From contig CACNQW010000010.1 of assembly GCA_902622745.1 (NCBI GenBank), forward strand, positions 1 to 38,543: a stretch of DNA of 38,543 nt. The letters run 5' to 3'. Of the stretch, positions 18,016 to 29,894 are shown one piece after another. This DNA is from an uncultured SAR116 cluster alpha proteobacterium (GTDB lineage Bacteria; Pseudomonadota; Alphaproteobacteria; Puniceispirillales; Marisalimonadaceae). Every line of letters starts with the position of its first letter. Position 1 is the first letter of the stretch. The position numbers and the translations under genes are program-made. The notes below the pieces were generated by a model, which ran no database searches, was not told where the DNA came from, and was given only the letters and a program-made list of their open reading frames with translations.

Positions 18016-18432
18016 TTAATTTTTTAGTTTTGCTACTAAAGTTGCCTTTGAATATCCAGCTGATTTAATCCTTGCAAGTACATTTAAAACAGATCCATAA
18101 TTAGCATTTTTATCTCCTTTAACAAAAATTCTTATATTTTTATTATTCTCAGAAATAGCTTTTACTTGTGGTATGATCTTTGAAATTTCAATTTTTCTAT
18201 CTTGGATATAAACAATTCCATTTTTCTTCACTGAAATGACCAATGGGTCTCCTTTTTGATTTAATTGTGAAGCTTTAGTTTTTGGAAGATCTACTTTAAC
18301 ACCGACAGTTAGTAATGGAGCTGTAATCATAAATACAATTAATAAAACAAGCATAACATCTACAAATGGGGTAACGTTAATTTGAGAAAATGACTTATTT
18401 CCCATTTTGTTTTTTTTAAAATCAAATTTCAT
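18016..18432 (-). CDS. tolR: TolR, ExbD-family proton-channel subunit
   Basis: Inner-membrane component of the TolQR proton-driven motor. The 138-residue protein has a short cytoplasmic N-terminus and the hallmark INVTPFVDVMLVLLIVF. In it Asp25 is the proton-carrying residue in the single transmembrane helix (about 20-42). A periplasmic ExbD/TolR domain completes it (about 55-138, including VFVKGDKNANYGSVLNVL-like sequence, here IRIFVKGDKNANYGSV). It lies 13 nt after tolQ and 3 nt before tolA, as expected for the tol operon. Confidence 0.96.
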   Translation of the reverse strand: MKFDFKKNKMGNKSFSQINVTPFVDVMLVLLIVFMITAPLLTVGVKVDLPKTKASQLNQKGDPLVISVKKNGIVYIQDRKIEISKIIPQVKAISENNKNIRIFVKGDKNANYGSVLNVLARIKSAGYSKATLVAKLKN

Positions 18433-18445
18433 ATGTCTTTATTAA

Positions 18446-19192
18446 TTATTTTTTATCTATTTCTTGAGTGAAATAAAGTCCAACATACTGACCAAAATGA
18501 TCACTCTTATCATTAAACATATCGATATCTTTTAAATACTTGTTGTAAGCAGCTACCGCAGGAATTGCAGCGAACAAACCTAATGCTGTTGCAAATAAAG
18601 CTTCCGCAATACCCGGAGCAACCACAGCTAAACTTGTATTGTTACTCATTGCTATAGATTGAAAAGAATTCATTATTCCCCAAACAGTTCCAAATAAACC
18701 AATAAATGGAGATATAGAGCCAATTGAAGCTAATACTGTCATGCTTCTCTCAAGTCTATGTCTTTCTTTAGTAATTGTGTAGGAGATTATACTTTCTAAT
18801 TTTTCTACAAATGAATTTAAATTAACTGGTCTACCAGTTGAAGTAACTTTAGAAAACTCTAATTTCGCATTAAAGTAAATTATTTCAAAAGAATTGAAAG
18901 TATTGGATTCTATTTTTTCTTTAATGAATTTTTCTAGAGCAGAATGGTCAATCTCAGATGTTGAAAAATATTGCTCAAAATTATCTCTTGTTTTTATTTC
19001 ATTTTTAAACTTAAAGTATTTGTTAAATATTATCGCCCAACACCAGATTGATAAAAAAATTAAAGATAGCATTACTAACATAACCACTGCATCTGCTTTA
19101 AAAAAGAGTTCTAAAAGTGAAAAATCATTTGATTGCAAATTGTCTATCTGCATTTCTGATGAAGAAGGTGTATTTAATTTTTGGTCACTCAT
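18446..19192 (-). CDS. tolQ: TolQ, MotA/TolQ/ExbB proton-channel subunit
   Basis: Pentamer-forming subunit of the TolQR motor that uses the proton gradient to drive TolA. The 248-residue protein has TM1 near residues 34-56, a large cytoplasmic loop, and TM2/TM3 in the C-terminal half. The family motif SISPFIGLFGTVWGIMNSF and the pore helix segment APGIAEALFATALGLFAAIPAVAAYN are intact. GAGG lies 7 nt before the ATG. It begins 8 nt after the ybgC stop. A second protein of this superfamily is encoded at 27189-28214; this one belongs to Tol by its neighbours tolR-tolA-tolB-pal. Confidence 0.97.
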   Translation of the reverse strand: MSDQKLNTPSSSEMQIDNLQSNDFSLLELFFKADAVVMLVMLSLIFLSIWCWAIIFNKYFKFKNEIKTRDNFEQYFSTSEIDHSALEKFIKEKIESNTFNSFEIIYFNAKLEFSKVTSTGRPVNLNSFVEKLESIISYTITKERHRLERSMTVLASIGSISPFIGLFGTVWGIMNSFQSIAMSNNTSLAVVAPGIAEALFATALGLFAAIPAVAAYNKYLKDIDMFNDKSDHFGQYVGLYFTQEIDKK

Positions 19193-24040: not shown

Positions 24041-24051
24041 GATGTATTTAC

Positions 24052-24202
24052 GGTAGCCAAAAAAAACGTCGGCAAGTTATCCTCTGTTGCCTGTTATACA
24101 GGTGGGCACCACATAACTTGACCAAAATCAAATCAGAGGCAGTTCCCTTAAGAGAAATTATGGCCCCAGGGTTAAAGCACCTAACGATAGTTTTCAGCCA
24201 CC
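24052..24202 (-). ncRNA. ssrS: 6S RNA
   Basis: This 171-nt space between zapA and the cyclo-ligase gene holds a 6S RNA, which mimics an open promoter and sequesters sigma-70 RNA polymerase. The minus-strand ends pair: GGUGGCUGAAAAC (from 24202) with GUUUUUUUUGGCUACC (ending 24052), a closing stem of about 13 bp. The internal segments also pair, e.g. AACUGCCUCUG with CAACAGAGGAUAACUUG and UCAAGUUAU with AUAACUUG, flanking a central bubble as in known 6S RNAs. GUGCCCACCUGUAUAACAGG forms a further hairpin on the 3' side. The zapA-6S-ygfA location is the textbook position. The mature ends are approximate. Confidence 0.9.
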
Positions 24203-24211
24203 ACATATATG

Positions 24212-24875: not shown

Positions 24876-25802
24876 ATGAAAATAACCAGAAAAGTATTTA
24901 GTATTTTAAATAACTATAAATCAGACAATCCAGGTGTAAGAGCTAATTTAGCTAGGATTCTGATGCATGGAAAACTAGGTGGTACAGGTAAATTAATTAT
25001 TCTACCAGTTGATCAGGGTTTTGAGCATGGCCCAGCAAGATCTTTTGCTGTGAATCCTGACGCTTATGATCCAGAATATCATTTTAATTTGGCAATAGAT
25101 GCTGGTTTATCTGCATTCGCAGCTCCATTAGGTTTAATAGAAACATGTGCAAGCTCGTATGCTGGGCAAATACCTTTAATTTTAAAAATTAATAGTTCTA
25201 ATTCTCTTAGCAGAAATAGTGATGCGCCAACACAAGCTTTAACCGGCTCAATATCTGAAGCAATCCGACTTGGATGTTCAGCTATAGGTTTTACTATTTA
25301 TCCTGGATCAGACGATTCTCTTAATATGCTATCCGAAATTCAAGAATTAGCTGCTGAAGCAAAGAGCTATGGATTAGCTGTAGTTGTATGGAGTTATCCT
25401 AGAGGAGGAAACATTAGTAAAGAAGGTGAAACCGCTATAGACATTGTCTCTTATGCCGCTCATATGGCTGCATTAATTGGAGCACATATTATAAAAGTAA
25501 AACCGCCAACAGAATTTCTCGAAGATTCAAACGCAAAAAAAGCGTATGTTGATAATAACATACCTATATCATCTCTTAGAGATAGAATACAAAACGTAGT
25601 TGAATCATGTTTTCAGGGAAAAAGAATAGTAATTTTTTCAGGTGGTTCAGCTAAAGACACAAAAGGCTTATTGAATGAAATAAGAGAAATTCACCTTGGG
25701 GGTGGTTTTGGATCAATTATTGGCCGAAATTCTTTTCAAAGACCAAAAAAAGAAGCTTTAGACCTACTATCTCAGATCATAGATATTTACAAAGGCAAGT
25801 GA
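24876..25802 (+). CDS. fbaB: Class I fructose-bisphosphate aldolase (DhnA/FbaB type)
   Basis: Schiff-base aldolase that cleaves or forms fructose-1,6-bisphosphate. The 308-residue protein belongs to the DhnA/archaeal-type class I family rather than the zinc-dependent class II type. It has ILPVDQGFEHGPARSF near residues 42-57, GLIETCASSYAGQIPLILKIN, and GFTIYPGSD. The likely Schiff-base lysine is in HIIKVKPPTEF (K207 or K209). IFSGGSAKDTKG and GFGSIIGRNSFQRP form the C-terminal phosphate-binding part. In several alphaproteobacteria I recall tkt-gap-pgk lying between the zapA locus and this gene; here they are absent. The stop overlaps the efp ATG by one base. Confidence 0.92.
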   Translation: MKITRKVFSILNNYKSDNPGVRANLARILMHGKLGGTGKLIILPVDQGFEHGPARSFAVNPDAYDPEYHFNLAIDAGLSAFAAPLGLIETCASSYAGQIPLILKINSSNSLSRNSDAPTQALTGSISEAIRLGCSAIGFTIYPGSDDSLNMLSEIQELAAEAKSYGLAVVVWSYPRGGNISKEGETAIDIVSYAAHMAALIGAHIIKVKPPTEFLEDSNAKKAYVDNNIPISSLRDRIQNVVESCFQGKRIVIFSGGSAKDTKGLLNEIREIHLGGGFGSIIGRNSFQRPKKEALDLLSQIIDIYKGK

Positions 25803-26368
25803 TGAAAATCAATGCTAATTCATTAAAAATTGGTAATTTAATAACTCACAATAATGAGCTATGGACTGTTGTTAAATTAAATCATGTTAAACCTGGAAAA
25901 GGTGGGGCATTTGTTCAAACAGAATTAAAAAATGTTAAAGATAATAGAAAATTAAATGAGAGATTTAGATCTACTGAAAATGTAGATAGAATTATTTTAG
26001 ATGAAAAAAAATGTAGTTATTTATTTCAAGAAAATAATAACTTTGTTTTTATGGAATTAGAAACATACGAACAATTAGAAGTTAATTCAGATATTATTGG
26101 TGATCAAAAACATTATTTATCAGATGGAATGGAAGTTTTAGTTAACTCATTTGAATCTCAAATAATATCAATTGATTTACCTGAAACTTGTGAAGTTGAA
26201 GTTATAGAAGCAGATGCTGTTATTAAAGGTCAAACTGTATCTTCATCATACAAACCTGCGACTATTAATAATGGCATAAAAATTATGGTACCTGGTCACA
26301 TTGAAGTTGGTACTAAAATCATAATTAAACCGTCCGACGGTACTTATGTCGAAAAATCTAAATTATAA
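25802..26368 (+). CDS. efp: Elongation factor P
   Basis: Binds between the P and E sites and relieves ribosomes stalled at polyproline. The ATG at 25802 (overlapping the aldolase TGA as TGATG) gives 188 residues, the standard length, and is preferred to the in-frame GTG one codon earlier. The KOW-like domain I carries the loop VKPGKGGAF with Lys33, equivalent to the E. coli Lys34 that is beta-lysylated by EpmA, so an EpmA/EpmB pathway may exist elsewhere. The two OB domains contain YLFQENNNFVFMELETYEQ and VSSSYKPATINNG, and the end is VPGHIEVGTKIIIKPSDGTYVEKSK-like. Confidence 0.97.
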   Translation: MKINANSLKIGNLITHNNELWTVVKLNHVKPGKGGAFVQTELKNVKDNRKLNERFRSTENVDRIILDEKKCSYLFQENNNFVFMELETYEQLEVNSDIIGDQKHYLSDGMEVLVNSFESQIISIDLPETCEVEVIEADAVIKGQTVSSSYKPATINNGIKIMVPGHIEVGTKIIIKPSDGTYVEKSKL

Positions 26369-26383
26369 TATTCATTAAATGCT

Positions 26384-27139
26384 ATGTCTAACATATCTCC
26401 ATTAATAAATGTAATGAAGACTGCTTACAATAAAGTTAATAGAAGAATATACAGAGACTTTGGTGAAATAGAAAATCTTCAAGGATTAGATGGTAAAATT
26501 GATAGATTTTTCAACAAAACATATGAATTTATTGAATATAATCTTAAAGATTATTTAACTTATTGTAGACCAGAGTGGAAATTTTTAAATGATAAGTATT
26601 CTTCTAGCAAGAAAGATACTTATTATTGGTTATTAGAGCCCTTGAGTGGTAAAGAAAATTTTAAAAGATCTATTCCAATTTTTTCAAGCTCAATTTCTGT
26701 ATTTTTTAATGATAAAATTATTGCAACCTCTATTTACGACCCGCTTCGAAATGATTTCTATTTTACTGAAGAAGGGAAAGGAGCTTTTTTAAATGACCAT
26801 AGAATTAGAGTATCAAATAGAAAATATTTAGAAAATAGCTTAATCTCACTGCAAGTAAATAATTCTAGTTTAGAAATTGAAAAAATTTTTTTAAAACATG
26901 ATATACCAATAAAAAATTTTAGAATTTTTAATTCTTCAATAGTATCTATAAGTTGGTTATGTAATGGTAAATTAGACTGCTTTATTGGAATAAACATGGA
27001 TCAATTTTTAATCCAATCAAGTAAACTTTTGTTAAGAGAGGCTGGAGGTTTTTTTTTAGAAGTTAATTTAAATCAAAATAATTTTTTTATTTGTGCCAAT
27101 CCTACAATACATAAAAAAATAATTAAGATTTTAAATTGA
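26384..27139 (+). CDS. Inositol-monophosphatase-family homologue with degenerate active site
   Basis: A 251-residue member of the IMPase/SuhB fold. SIYDPLRNDFYFTEEGKGAFLNDHRIRVS (cited in part) and the C-terminal LLLREAGGFF match the family closely. The catalytic motifs do not: the usual D-P-[LI]-D-G-T-x-N-F reads E85-P-L-S88-G-K90-E-N-F93, so both metal-binding aspartates and the Thr are changed. The usual W-D-x-A-A-G aligns with F208-L209-I-Q-S-S, losing the third Asp. It is probably not a phosphatase but a retained non-catalytic protein. Bacterial SuhB also has RNA polymerase- and ribosome-related roles without needing phosphatase activity, which is one possible precedent. It lies 15 nt after efp and 49 nt before the MotA-like gene. 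Confidence 0.85.
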   Translation: MSNISPLINVMKTAYNKVNRRIYRDFGEIENLQGLDGKIDRFFNKTYEFIEYNLKDYLTYCRPEWKFLNDKYSSSKKDTYYWLLEPLSGKENFKRSIPIFSSSISVFFNDKIIATSIYDPLRNDFYFTEEGKGAFLNDHRIRVSNRKYLENSLISLQVNNSSLEIEKIFLKHDIPIKNFRIFNSSIVSISWLCNGKLDCFIGINMDQFLIQSSKLLLREAGGFFLEVNLNQNNFFICANPTIHKKIIKILN

Positions 27140-27188: not shown

Positions 27189-28214
27189 ATGAGTAGCCCC
27201 AATAAATACGCATTTAGAATGATTTTACTATTAATAATAGTAATGGTTATTTCATATCTTCTTTATGATCCCTTAAAAGATGCTTTTGAAGGTAACAGAG
27301 AAATTAATGGGCTTATCATATTTACCTTTTTTGCAGGCGTTTTGTTATCATTTAGACAAACATTTAGGTTAAGTAAAGAAGGCAATTGGTTGCAATATGT
27401 AAAAAAAAATGATGTTTTTTTACCTGATAATTATAAAACATCTAAAATTAAACCCGAACTCCTCGCACCTATCGCAGCTCTTCTTTTAGAAAAGAAAAAT
27501 GAAAATTCTTCATTATCGGCAAATTCTTTATCAACCATTCTTGGAGGTGTGTCTTCAAGGTTAGATGAAAATAGAGATATAATTAGATATATCATTGGAT
27601 TATTAGTTTTTTTAGGATTATTGGGAACATTTTGGGGATTGCTTCAAACGATATCATCTGTATCTTCTGTTATTCAGTCACTGGAGACAAGTGTAAATGA
27701 AAATAATGCTAATTTTTTTGACAAAATTATTAAAGGACTGAATGCGCCTATGGAAGGAATGTCAACCGCTTTTTCTTCTTCTTTATTTGGACTTGGCACA
27801 TCACTTATACTTGGATTTCTAGATTTACAAGTGAGTCAAGCAAACAATAGGTTTTTCAATGAATTAGAAGATTGGCTTTCTCAAAAAGCTATTTTTACAG
27901 CTCCAAGTGAAACAAAAAACATTGAATTGGGAGAAGTGGCTCTTGAAAATTTAGCTGTAATATCAAAAAATTATATTAACACAGAAAATGAAAAAGTTAA
28001 AACATCTGAAAGGTTAAATGAACTAAATTTACTCCTAAGTCGTTTGACAGAAAAATTGGATGACGAAAAAAATATTAAACATTCAATTGATGAATTAAAT
28101 ATGAACGTCAAAAATATAATTGAAAATGATAAAATTCATTCCAATGAATTAATTAATAATATTAACCTTGAATTAAGAGCTTTAAGTAAAGTAATTGAAA
28201 AATTAAACAAATAA
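27189..28214 (+). CDS. MotA/TolQ/ExbB-superfamily membrane protein
   Basis: A 341-residue inner-membrane protein with four predicted helices: about 9-26, 39-55, 132-157 and 190-213. The third holds the superfamily motif GLLGTFWGL (143-151), and the fourth (GMSTAFSSSLFGLGTSLILGFLDL, cited in part) is the pore-type helix. A cytoplasmic loop separates helices 2 and 3. A charged, coiled-coil-prone C-terminal tail of about 110 residues follows. Paired with the MotB/OmpA-like gene 4 nt downstream, it probably forms a proton-driven 5:2 stator-like unit. It is distinct from TolQ (18446-19192). No flagellar, ExbD/TonB or defence genes are nearby, so its load is unknown. Confidence 0.85.
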   Translation: MSSPNKYAFRMILLLIIVMVISYLLYDPLKDAFEGNREINGLIIFTFFAGVLLSFRQTFRLSKEGNWLQYVKKNDVFLPDNYKTSKIKPELLAPIAALLLEKKNENSSLSANSLSTILGGVSSRLDENRDIIRYIIGLLVFLGLLGTFWGLLQTISSVSSVIQSLETSVNENNANFFDKIIKGLNAPMEGMSTAFSSSLFGLGTSLILGFLDLQVSQANNRFFNELEDWLSQKAIFTAPSETKNIELGEVALENLAVISKNYINTENEKVKTSERLNELNLLLSRLTEKLDDEKNIKHSIDELNMNVKNIIENDKIHSNELINNINLELRALSKVIEKLNK

Positions 28215-28218
28215 TTAA

Positions 28219-29331
28219 ATGCATTATCTCAAGTTAAGAAATAAAAATGATAATTTTATTTGGCCAAGTTTCGTTGATGCTTTAGCTAGTCTACTTATAG
28301 TTATAATTTTTATACTGATGATATTTGTTATATCTCAATATTATATTAGCCAAAAATTAAGTGGTAAAGATCAAGCCTTAACCCAATTAGAGGCAAAAAT
28401 TTTAAAAATAACAAATCAATTAAGTATTGAAAAGGAAATGACAAAAAGATTATCTGCTAATATTTTCAGTATTCAAAGTGAATTAGATAAAAAAGATTTA
28501 GAATTACTTCAAAATAAAAGCTTAATAACAAATTTAAAAGCCAAAATAAATAAAAATGAATTTAAACTTTCTGAGCAATCGGAGATTTTAGAAAGTAAAG
28601 ATCAAAAACTAAGTAGTTTACAAAAAAAACTTTTAGATAAAAATAAAGCCGAAAGTAACTACAATAAAATTATTAATGATAAAAAAAAAGAAGTTAGTAA
28701 TTTAAATATACTTATCTCAAACTTAAAAGAAAAAATTAATAAGCTTAATTCTCTATTAGACGTGTATGAAAAAAAGGATAAAGCAGAAAAAATTAAAAAT
28801 TTACAATTGAAATCGACCTTAAATTCTGCTTTAGCTAGAAGAGTTGAAGAGTTACAAAAATTTAAGTCAATGTTTTTTGGAACTGTTAAAGAAAAAATAA
28901 AAAATATTCCTGAAATTAAAATTGTTGGGGATAGATTTGTTTTTCAATCTGAAGTTTTATTTGAAACCGGTTCAATTGAAATAGGAGAAAAAGGTAAAAT
29001 TGAATTGAAAAAATTTGCAGAGATTTTGTTAAATTTAGACAAAGATATACCCAAAGATTCAAATTGGATTTTACAAATTGAAGGGCACACAGATAATTTG
29101 CCTGTTAGAAAAGGACAAATTTATAAAGATAATTGGGAATTATCTACTAAAAGGGCTTTATCAGTATTAAGATATTTTATTAATCAAGGCTTAGATCCTA
29201 AAAAATTATTTGCTTCTGGCTATGGAAGCTTTCAACCTATTGACAACACAAACACAAAAATAGGAAGAATGAAAAATCGAAGAATTGAAATGAAAATTAC
29301 TCAGAAATTAATTATTAATAATGATAATTAA
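28219..29331 (+). CDS. MotB-like protein with OmpA/peptidoglycan-binding domain
   Basis: A 370-residue partner of the MotA/TolQ-like protein. A short cytoplasmic N-terminus is followed by one transmembrane helix (about 17-40, W-P-S-F-V-D-A-L-A-S-L-L) with Asp20 in the place of the proton-binding Asp of MotB/TolR. A very long periplasmic coiled coil follows (about 45-215). The C-terminal OmpA-like domain (about 236-362) contains VLFETGSIEI, IEGHTDNLPV (GHTD at 289-292) and MKNRRIEMKI, the usual peptidoglycan-binding residues. The anchor, spacer and wall-binding domain suggest an energised link between inner membrane and cell wall. The stop overlaps the next small gene by 11 nt. Confidence 0.87.
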   Translation: MHYLKLRNKNDNFIWPSFVDALASLLIVIIFILMIFVISQYYISQKLSGKDQALTQLEAKILKITNQLSIEKEMTKRLSANIFSIQSELDKKDLELLQNKSLITNLKAKINKNEFKLSEQSEILESKDQKLSSLQKKLLDKNKAESNYNKIINDKKKEVSNLNILISNLKEKINKLNSLLDVYEKKDKAEKIKNLQLKSTLNSALARRVEELQKFKSMFFGTVKEKIKNIPEIKIVGDRFVFQSEVLFETGSIEIGEKGKIELKKFAEILLNLDKDIPKDSNWILQIEGHTDNLPVRKGQIYKDNWELSTKRALSVLRYFINQGLDPKKLFASGYGSFQPIDNTNTKIGRMKNRRIEMKITQKLIINNDN

Positions 29332-29620
29332 ATTTATCAAATATTTTAAGGCTAAATCTTTAAATCATCTGATACTAATATTCATAATTTTTGGTATTAG
29401 CGGTTCTTTAACTATAGTTTTATCAGAACCTATTATTAATTTTATTAAAATAAATGAAATTATAGAAAATATGTTTATTCTATTATTTTTACGAATAATT
29501 ATTATTTTTCCATTATATCAATTAGTTCTAATTTCAATTGCCACCATATTTGGTGAATTTAATTATTTTCTTTCATTTGAAAGAAGTATGTTAAGAAAAC
29601 TTTTTAAAAAGCTTAAGTAA
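29321..29620 (+). CDS. Small two-helix membrane protein
   Basis: A 99-residue protein with two hydrophobic helices (about 15-35 and 50-77) and a basic C-terminal tail (R-K-L-F-K-K-L-K). The segment FGISGSLTIVLSEPIINFI is loosely reminiscent of DUF6787-type small membrane proteins, but I do not recognise it with confidence. Its ATG lies inside the MotB-like gene (11-nt overlap), so it is probably translated with it. It could be an accessory subunit of that membrane complex, or simply a hitch-hiker; no function is assigned. Confidence 0.7.
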   Translation: MIIKFIKYFKAKSLNHLILIFIIFGISGSLTIVLSEPIINFIKINEIIENMFILLFLRIIIIFPLYQLVLISIATIFGEFNYFLSFERSMLRKLFKKLK

Positions 29621-29672: not shown

Positions 29673-29894
29673 ATGAAAAAAAATATACATCCAGACTATC
29701 ATGAAATTAATATAGAAATGACAGATGGTACAAAATATATAACAAAGTCAACCTGGGGTAAAAAAGGTGATACTCTTAAATTAGACATTGACCCAGCATC
29801 TCACCCTGCATGGACAGGTCAACATAGAATAATGGATTCTGGCGGGCAAGTTGCTAGATTTAATAAAAGATTCTCTGGTCTAAGTAAAAAATAA
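29673..29894 (+). CDS. rpmE: 50S ribosomal protein L31
   Basis: A 73-residue L31 with the invariant start [11 protein letters not shown] and the segments [27 protein letters not shown] and FNKRFSGL. It lacks the CxxC zinc-binding cysteines, so it is the zinc-independent (C-minus) alphaproteobacterial type. GAGG 7 nt before the ATG is a good ribosome binding site. A TATACA element at 29650-29655 after the upstream terminator could be its own -10. Its TAA is directly back-to-back with the glyS stop. Confidence 0.97.

Follow-up and report, generated by a model that had tools for sequence, protein, structure and literature searches.

Two adjoining membrane protein genes, here called A and B, lie on the forward strand of a 38,543-nt stretch of DNA from an uncultured SAR116 alphaproteobacterium (the whole stretch analysed, hereafter the window), where they are followed by a small third gene (Table 1). 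We verified the coordinates and the common strand of the three open reading frames, together with the 11-nt overlap between the last two that had been claimed from the sequence alone. The host assembly consists of 1.39 Mb in 74 contigs and is 68% complete, about one third of the genome being missing. The closest genomes belong to SAR116 (Puniceispirillales), with an identity of 89% for A at locus L036, the nearest relative, and of 57–67% in the others. Comparison with L036 gave a dN of 0.061 and a dS of 0.946 for A (dN/dS ~0.06), and a dN of 0.087 and a dS of 0.662 for B (dN/dS ~0.13). Judged against this relative, both are under strong purifying selection, which indicates that they are real genes. 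Elsewhere in the window, a 6S RNA (Rfam RF00013, 52.4 bits) was detected at positions 24050–24203 on the reverse strand, between the 5-formyltetrahydrofolate cyclo-ligase gene and zapA, which is a usual site for this RNA.

Table 1. Coordinates of the A-B genes, their predicted domains and surrounding genes in the window
Feature	Position	Strand	Basis
TolR/ExbD protein of tol-pal cluster	18016..18432	-	Pfam ExbD 2.6e-27
TolQ of separate tol-pal cluster	18446..19192	-	TIGR02796 4.8e-67, above cut-off
efp, elongation factor P, kept neighbour	25799..26368	+	Gene order in relatives; name read from sequence, no family search
Inositol monophosphatase family gene, kept neighbour	26384..27139	+	Pfam 2e-17; 62/80 loci
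A gene, MotA/TolQ/ExbB-family membrane protein, 341 aa	27189..28214	+	ORF, Pfam MotA_ExbB
A residues 247-340, predicted cytoplasmic helical tail with a heptad period	27927..28208	+	AlphaFold2, pLDDT ~62-79 there
B gene, PRK09039 family, 370 aa	28219..29331	+	ORF, NCBIfam NF006543, Pfam OmpA
B Asp20 codon, presumed ion-binding residue	28276..28278	+	D in 49/49 sequences
B coiled-coil stretch, residues 40-227, break near 190-198	28336..28899	+	AlphaFold2 helices, heptad period
B OmpA-like domain, residues 233-362	28915..29304	+	Pfam, AlphaFold2, D292 + R312 invariant
Gene for DUF6787 membrane protein of 99 aa, probably accessory or a passenger	29321..29620	+	ORF, Pfam PF20584
rpmE, ribosomal protein L31, downstream neighbour	29673..29894	+	Pfam 6.5e-26

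A matches Pfam MotA_ExbB with an E-value of 6.7e-7. Its single-chain AlphaFold2 model (mean pLDDT 78) contains helices at residues 4–24, 37–74, 111–170 and 174–236 ahead of the tail, which has a 3.5-residue heptad periodicity; four long membrane or near-membrane helices and a helical tail are thus modelled, as expected of the four-helix MotA/TolQ-family protein with a long tail that the sequence-only reading had proposed. The loop joining helices 2 and 3 is short in this model. T147 and S198 are invariant among 56 sequences. Viral contigs searched with the A protein yielded no relative, and a PDB sequence search with the A profile returned chance coiled-coil matches only. Two other MotA_ExbB-family genes were observed in the host: one on contig C9 (L003, 1204–2329), followed by a gene for a 205-residue membrane protein outside any Pfam family, with which it possibly forms another small motor pair, and a 118-residue reading frame on the reverse strand of contig C17 (L005, 1507–1863) with no obvious partner.

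By NCBI's own cut-off, B is a member of PRK09039 (NCBIfam NF006543, 314.1 bits against a cut-off of 305), a family that NCBI names "peptidoglycan -binding protein"; it has the same domain order, and this member is set apart only by its AT-rich SAR116 composition. Its C-terminal region matches Pfam OmpA (E = 6.2e-20), and the single-chain AlphaFold2 model (pLDDT 84) shows helices at residues 17–190 and 198–227 followed by an OmpA fold. D20, D292 and R312 are invariant in 49 sequences, the latter two being the diaminopimelate-binding pair of OmpA-family structures. The description of B as a partner with Asp20, a coiled coil and an OmpA domain is therefore borne out. The coil, which has a 3.5-residue heptad period, had also been thought long enough to span much of the periplasm. 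Residues 40–190 would indeed measure 22.5 nm as a straight helix; in 75 sequences, however, anywhere between 181 and 349 residues separate Asp20 from the OmpA domain (216 in the SAR116 protein), and the coil is consequently not a strict ruler. Compared across these sequences, it is long throughout and of no fixed length.

A lies directly 5′ of B in 30 of 30 loci and in 78 of 80, the remaining two being cut by contig ends, and the conserved order is efp, inositol monophosphatase, A, B and rpmE. Inositol monophosphatase is found upstream in 62 of the 80 loci, mostly preceded by efp, and rpmE lies downstream in many. In 31 of the 75 loci with enough upstream sequence (L047, L057, L061 and L086, for example), A is immediately preceded by the gene for a proline-rich protein that apparently carries a signal sequence and has an OmpA domain at its C terminus (Pfam 3e-10 to 6e-13). 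This protein is possibly a periplasmic partner of the motor in these relatives. SAR116 loci have no such gene upstream of A. Relocation of this gene within the host genome was considered and rejected, as a search of the incomplete assembly matched only Pal. In a Desulfobacteraceae genome (L115, 4971–8801), the gene for an A homologue precedes those for two long OmpA proteins with coiled coils.

The third gene encodes a member of DUF6787 (PF20584, E = 6.6e-17, 62.1 bits against a gathering score of 27.5) with two hydrophobic segments. The sequence-only reading had suggested modelling it together with A and B, and we considered it as a dedicated third subunit; the comparative data led us to reject this. 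DUF6787 was found in 6 of 240 alphaproteobacterial genomes, four times within the interval between B and rpmE, and in three of these four cases (L116, L117 and L118, from two other families) on the opposite strand. It adjoins a cyaY/frataxin-like gene, so named by eye, in L117 and L118, and in one further genome it sits beside a gene for an ABC transporter. At L036 (7132–7432), several stops and indels interrupt its frame, whereas the frames of A, B and rpmE are unbroken. Given its rarity in the class, its opposite orientation elsewhere and its decay in L036, we judge DUF6787 to be optional, probably an accessory or a passenger. We found no mention of it in the open-licence literature.

We next consider the kinship of the pair. 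Profile-profile comparison of A gave probabilities of 90.1 for ZorA, 89.3 for TolQ and 28.7 for MotA. Its fold is equally close to TolQ, ExbB and ZorA, which are tied at Z scores of 11.7–12.7, and lies further from MotA (9.9); the MotA structural alignment also takes in the extra N-terminal helix of A, whereas that with ZorA begins at residue 24–31. In the best tree of the TM3-TM4 core, 20 A homologues form a single clade (support 98/94) and all MotAs fall elsewhere; an AU test on 93 columns rejected neither a grouping of A with MotA (p = 0.32) nor one with TolQ (p = 0.36). No MotA_N (PF20560) match was found for A in a Pfam search, and its score against the MotA equivalog TIGR03818 was 13.7 bits for a cut-off of 303.8. 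B can be aligned to domains of both ZorB and MotB. As the sequence-only reading had it, the pair is of a motor type distinct from Tol-Pal.

The same reading had placed this pair in a cell without flagella, and this part has to be abandoned. Flagellar genes were sought in the host by family search and in a few stretches; the assembly encodes FlhA (E = 6.6e-240), near which lie genes for a ParA-type protein, a sigma factor, FlgT_N, FlgA and FlgD, and the end of another contig carries a gene for a MotA_ExbB protein with MotA-like topology followed by one for a MotB-plug protein. To judge from these sequences, a true MotA-MotB pair is encoded elsewhere in the host genome. FliG was sought in the host assembly and not found, which means little at 68% completeness. 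Scoring the motor as present for PRK09039 matches with E ≤ 1e-50, a threshold chosen in this analysis, we found it in 150 of 240 alphaproteobacterial genomes and FliG in 139. Both occur in 91 genomes, the motor only in 59, FliG only in 48 and neither in 42 (p = 0.28, the kinship of the genomes being ignored). In this profiling of genomes with and without flagella the pair does not track FliG; with FliG as the marker, the motor family is independent of flagella across Alphaproteobacteria. Among 398 sampled Pseudomonadota genomes, the A profile matched 94, namely 87 Alphaproteobacteria and seven others from four families.

These observations bear on whether A-B could be an auxiliary flagellar stator, that is, a second MotAB used for swimming. 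Two stator sets occur in some bacteria, the host has flagellar genes, A shares with MotA and PomA the extra N-terminal helix, B has the membrane Asp and OmpA domain of MotB and PomB, and the AU test leaves a MotA grouping standing. On the contrary, 59 of the 150 genomes bearing the pair are without FliG, A lacks MotA_N, scores far below the MotA equivalog cut-off and is separate from the MotAs in the best tree, only a short loop links its modelled helices 2 and 3, and the host has its true MotA-MotB pair at another site. We consider a role as a second stator highly improbable.

The nearest architectural match of A-B is instead the ZorAB core of the anti-phage system Zorya. ZorAB is an ion-driven 5:2 complex in which a rod is built from the bundled ZorA tails and ZorB binds peptidoglycan, and its function requires the ion-driven complex, the tail rod and peptidoglycan binding alike (PMC11890865). 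A resembles ZorA in its helical cytoplasmic tail, and B resembles ZorB in its single membrane helix, its Asp and its OmpA-type domain; the conserved membrane Asp and the peptidoglycan-binding domain that characterize the Zorya B subunit are both found in B, where D20, D292 and R312 are invariant. PADLOC also assigned A to ZorA1 (1.3e-15) and B to ZorB3 (2.6e-30), these models matching in part only. Such scores, added to the common architecture (PMC11890865), could mean that A-B is a Zorya core, or a relic of one, with unlinked effectors. Against this, PADLOC found no ZorC/D, ZorE or ZorF/G effector among the ten neighbouring proteins scanned, A reached 18.2 bits against NCBIfam ZorA_2 (NF033915) for a cut-off of 100, and throughout the class the pair occupies a single conserved site among housekeeping genes rather than being scattered patchily. 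A-B further differs from ZorAB by the extra N-terminal helix of A and the much longer coiled coil of B. We thus regard a defensive core as very unlikely. The sole PADLOC match among the neighbours, mad2, falls on a protein that is a tRNA methyltransferase by Pfam.

TolQ, TolR, TolB and Pal genes were identified inside the window on the strand opposite to A-B, in agreement with the earlier claim that TolQR is encoded separately there. The profile and fold of A resemble TolQ and ExbB; A-B differs from TolQR and ExbBD in that B is OmpA-type and not ExbD/TolR-type and that A has an added helix and tail. A-B could act as a backup or partner of Tol-Pal that feeds outer-membrane invagination at division, an idea that fits the TolQ-like profile of A, the predicted OmpA-type wall binding of B, the proline-rich OmpA-domain neighbour in relatives and the proximity of zapA. 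It fits less well with the separate location of the tol genes and with the absence of a TolA- or TolB-like gene at the A-B locus. Moreover, TolQ is present in 30 of 31 genomes while the A-B pair is often lost, so that A-B cannot be a required part of Tol. On balance, we find this alternative unlikely.

The sequence-only reading had also argued for an important role from the retention of the pair in a streamlined genome. Considering genomes at least 90% complete, we found it in 16 of 45 of those of at most 1.6 Mb compared to 117 of 155 larger ones. Most reduced genomes have thus lost the pair, which makes the argument a weak one.

Our best reading is that the pair is a vertically kept, wall-anchored motor. 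Directly legible at the locus and in its relatives are the pairing of A with B, the invariant residues, the intact peptidoglycan-binding residues, the coiled coil in B, the heptad repeat in the A tail and the synteny; by analogy, we infer rotation, proton use and output. Fold and conserved residues suggest that five A subunits would surround two B subunits (5:2), with the OmpA domain of B gripping the cell wall, protons crossing at Asp20 and A rotating round the wall-fixed B. Since A is apparently not of the flagellar MotA family, work would leave by way of a cytoplasmic bundle of A tails, by the B coil tugging on the wall, or both. In many relatives, the proline-rich OmpA-domain protein encoded upstream may act as a periplasmic partner, for which SAR116 has no gene at this site. 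One could also imagine a passive tether or leak-gated sensor between the inner membrane and the wall that signals strain without rotating, consistent with the long coil and wall-binding domain of B and with there being no known cytoplasmic partner. Asp20 and the ion-path Thr/Ser positions of the superfamily are strictly conserved, which speaks against a passive device; we give this alternative hardly any credence.

The most likely service of the motor would be to maintain or sense the wall and outer membrane, beside Tol-Pal. The housekeeping site, the wide spread in a single neighbourhood, the lack of association with flagella and the adjacent OmpA-domain gene favour the envelope over defence; conversely, the neighbouring genes serve translation and metabolism and many reduced genomes are without the pair. 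This envelope role, which we infer, is the least supported step of the explanation. Taken as a whole, we think it probable, with appreciable room for doubt, that A-B is a non-flagellar, ion-driven (probably proton-driven) 5:2 motor resembling the ZorAB core and likely engaged in envelope upkeep or sensing, with DUF6787 as an optional addition. More tentatively, A-B may represent an ancestral third general trans-envelope motor of Alphaproteobacteria, composed of a TolQ/ZorA-like A, a MotB/ZorB-like B and a proline-rich OmpA partner, which would drive or sense the wall and deliver its output through a cytoplasmic rod, and would be of more recent common descent with ZorAB than either is with MotAB; we hold this broader proposal to be possible and rather doubtful.

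To our knowledge, few ion-driven envelope motors are known, and each has opened a field. The A-B pair is catalogued, as "MotA/TolQ/ExbB protein" and "peptidoglycan -binding protein", yet apparently unstudied: we found no experimental study of it or of PRK09039 function in the open-licence literature. A 2025 survey described non-flagellar B subunits as being without OmpA homology (PMC12505986), to which A-B would be a counter-example if A is truly non-flagellar. The motor is widespread in Alphaproteobacteria, including cultivable and manipulable groups (Azospirillum, Devosia, Magnetospirillum relatives), and it offers a natural non-defence comparison for wall sensing by ZorAB. If the broader proposal is true, the anti-phage ZorAB would be kin to a motor with a housekeeping role in the envelope.
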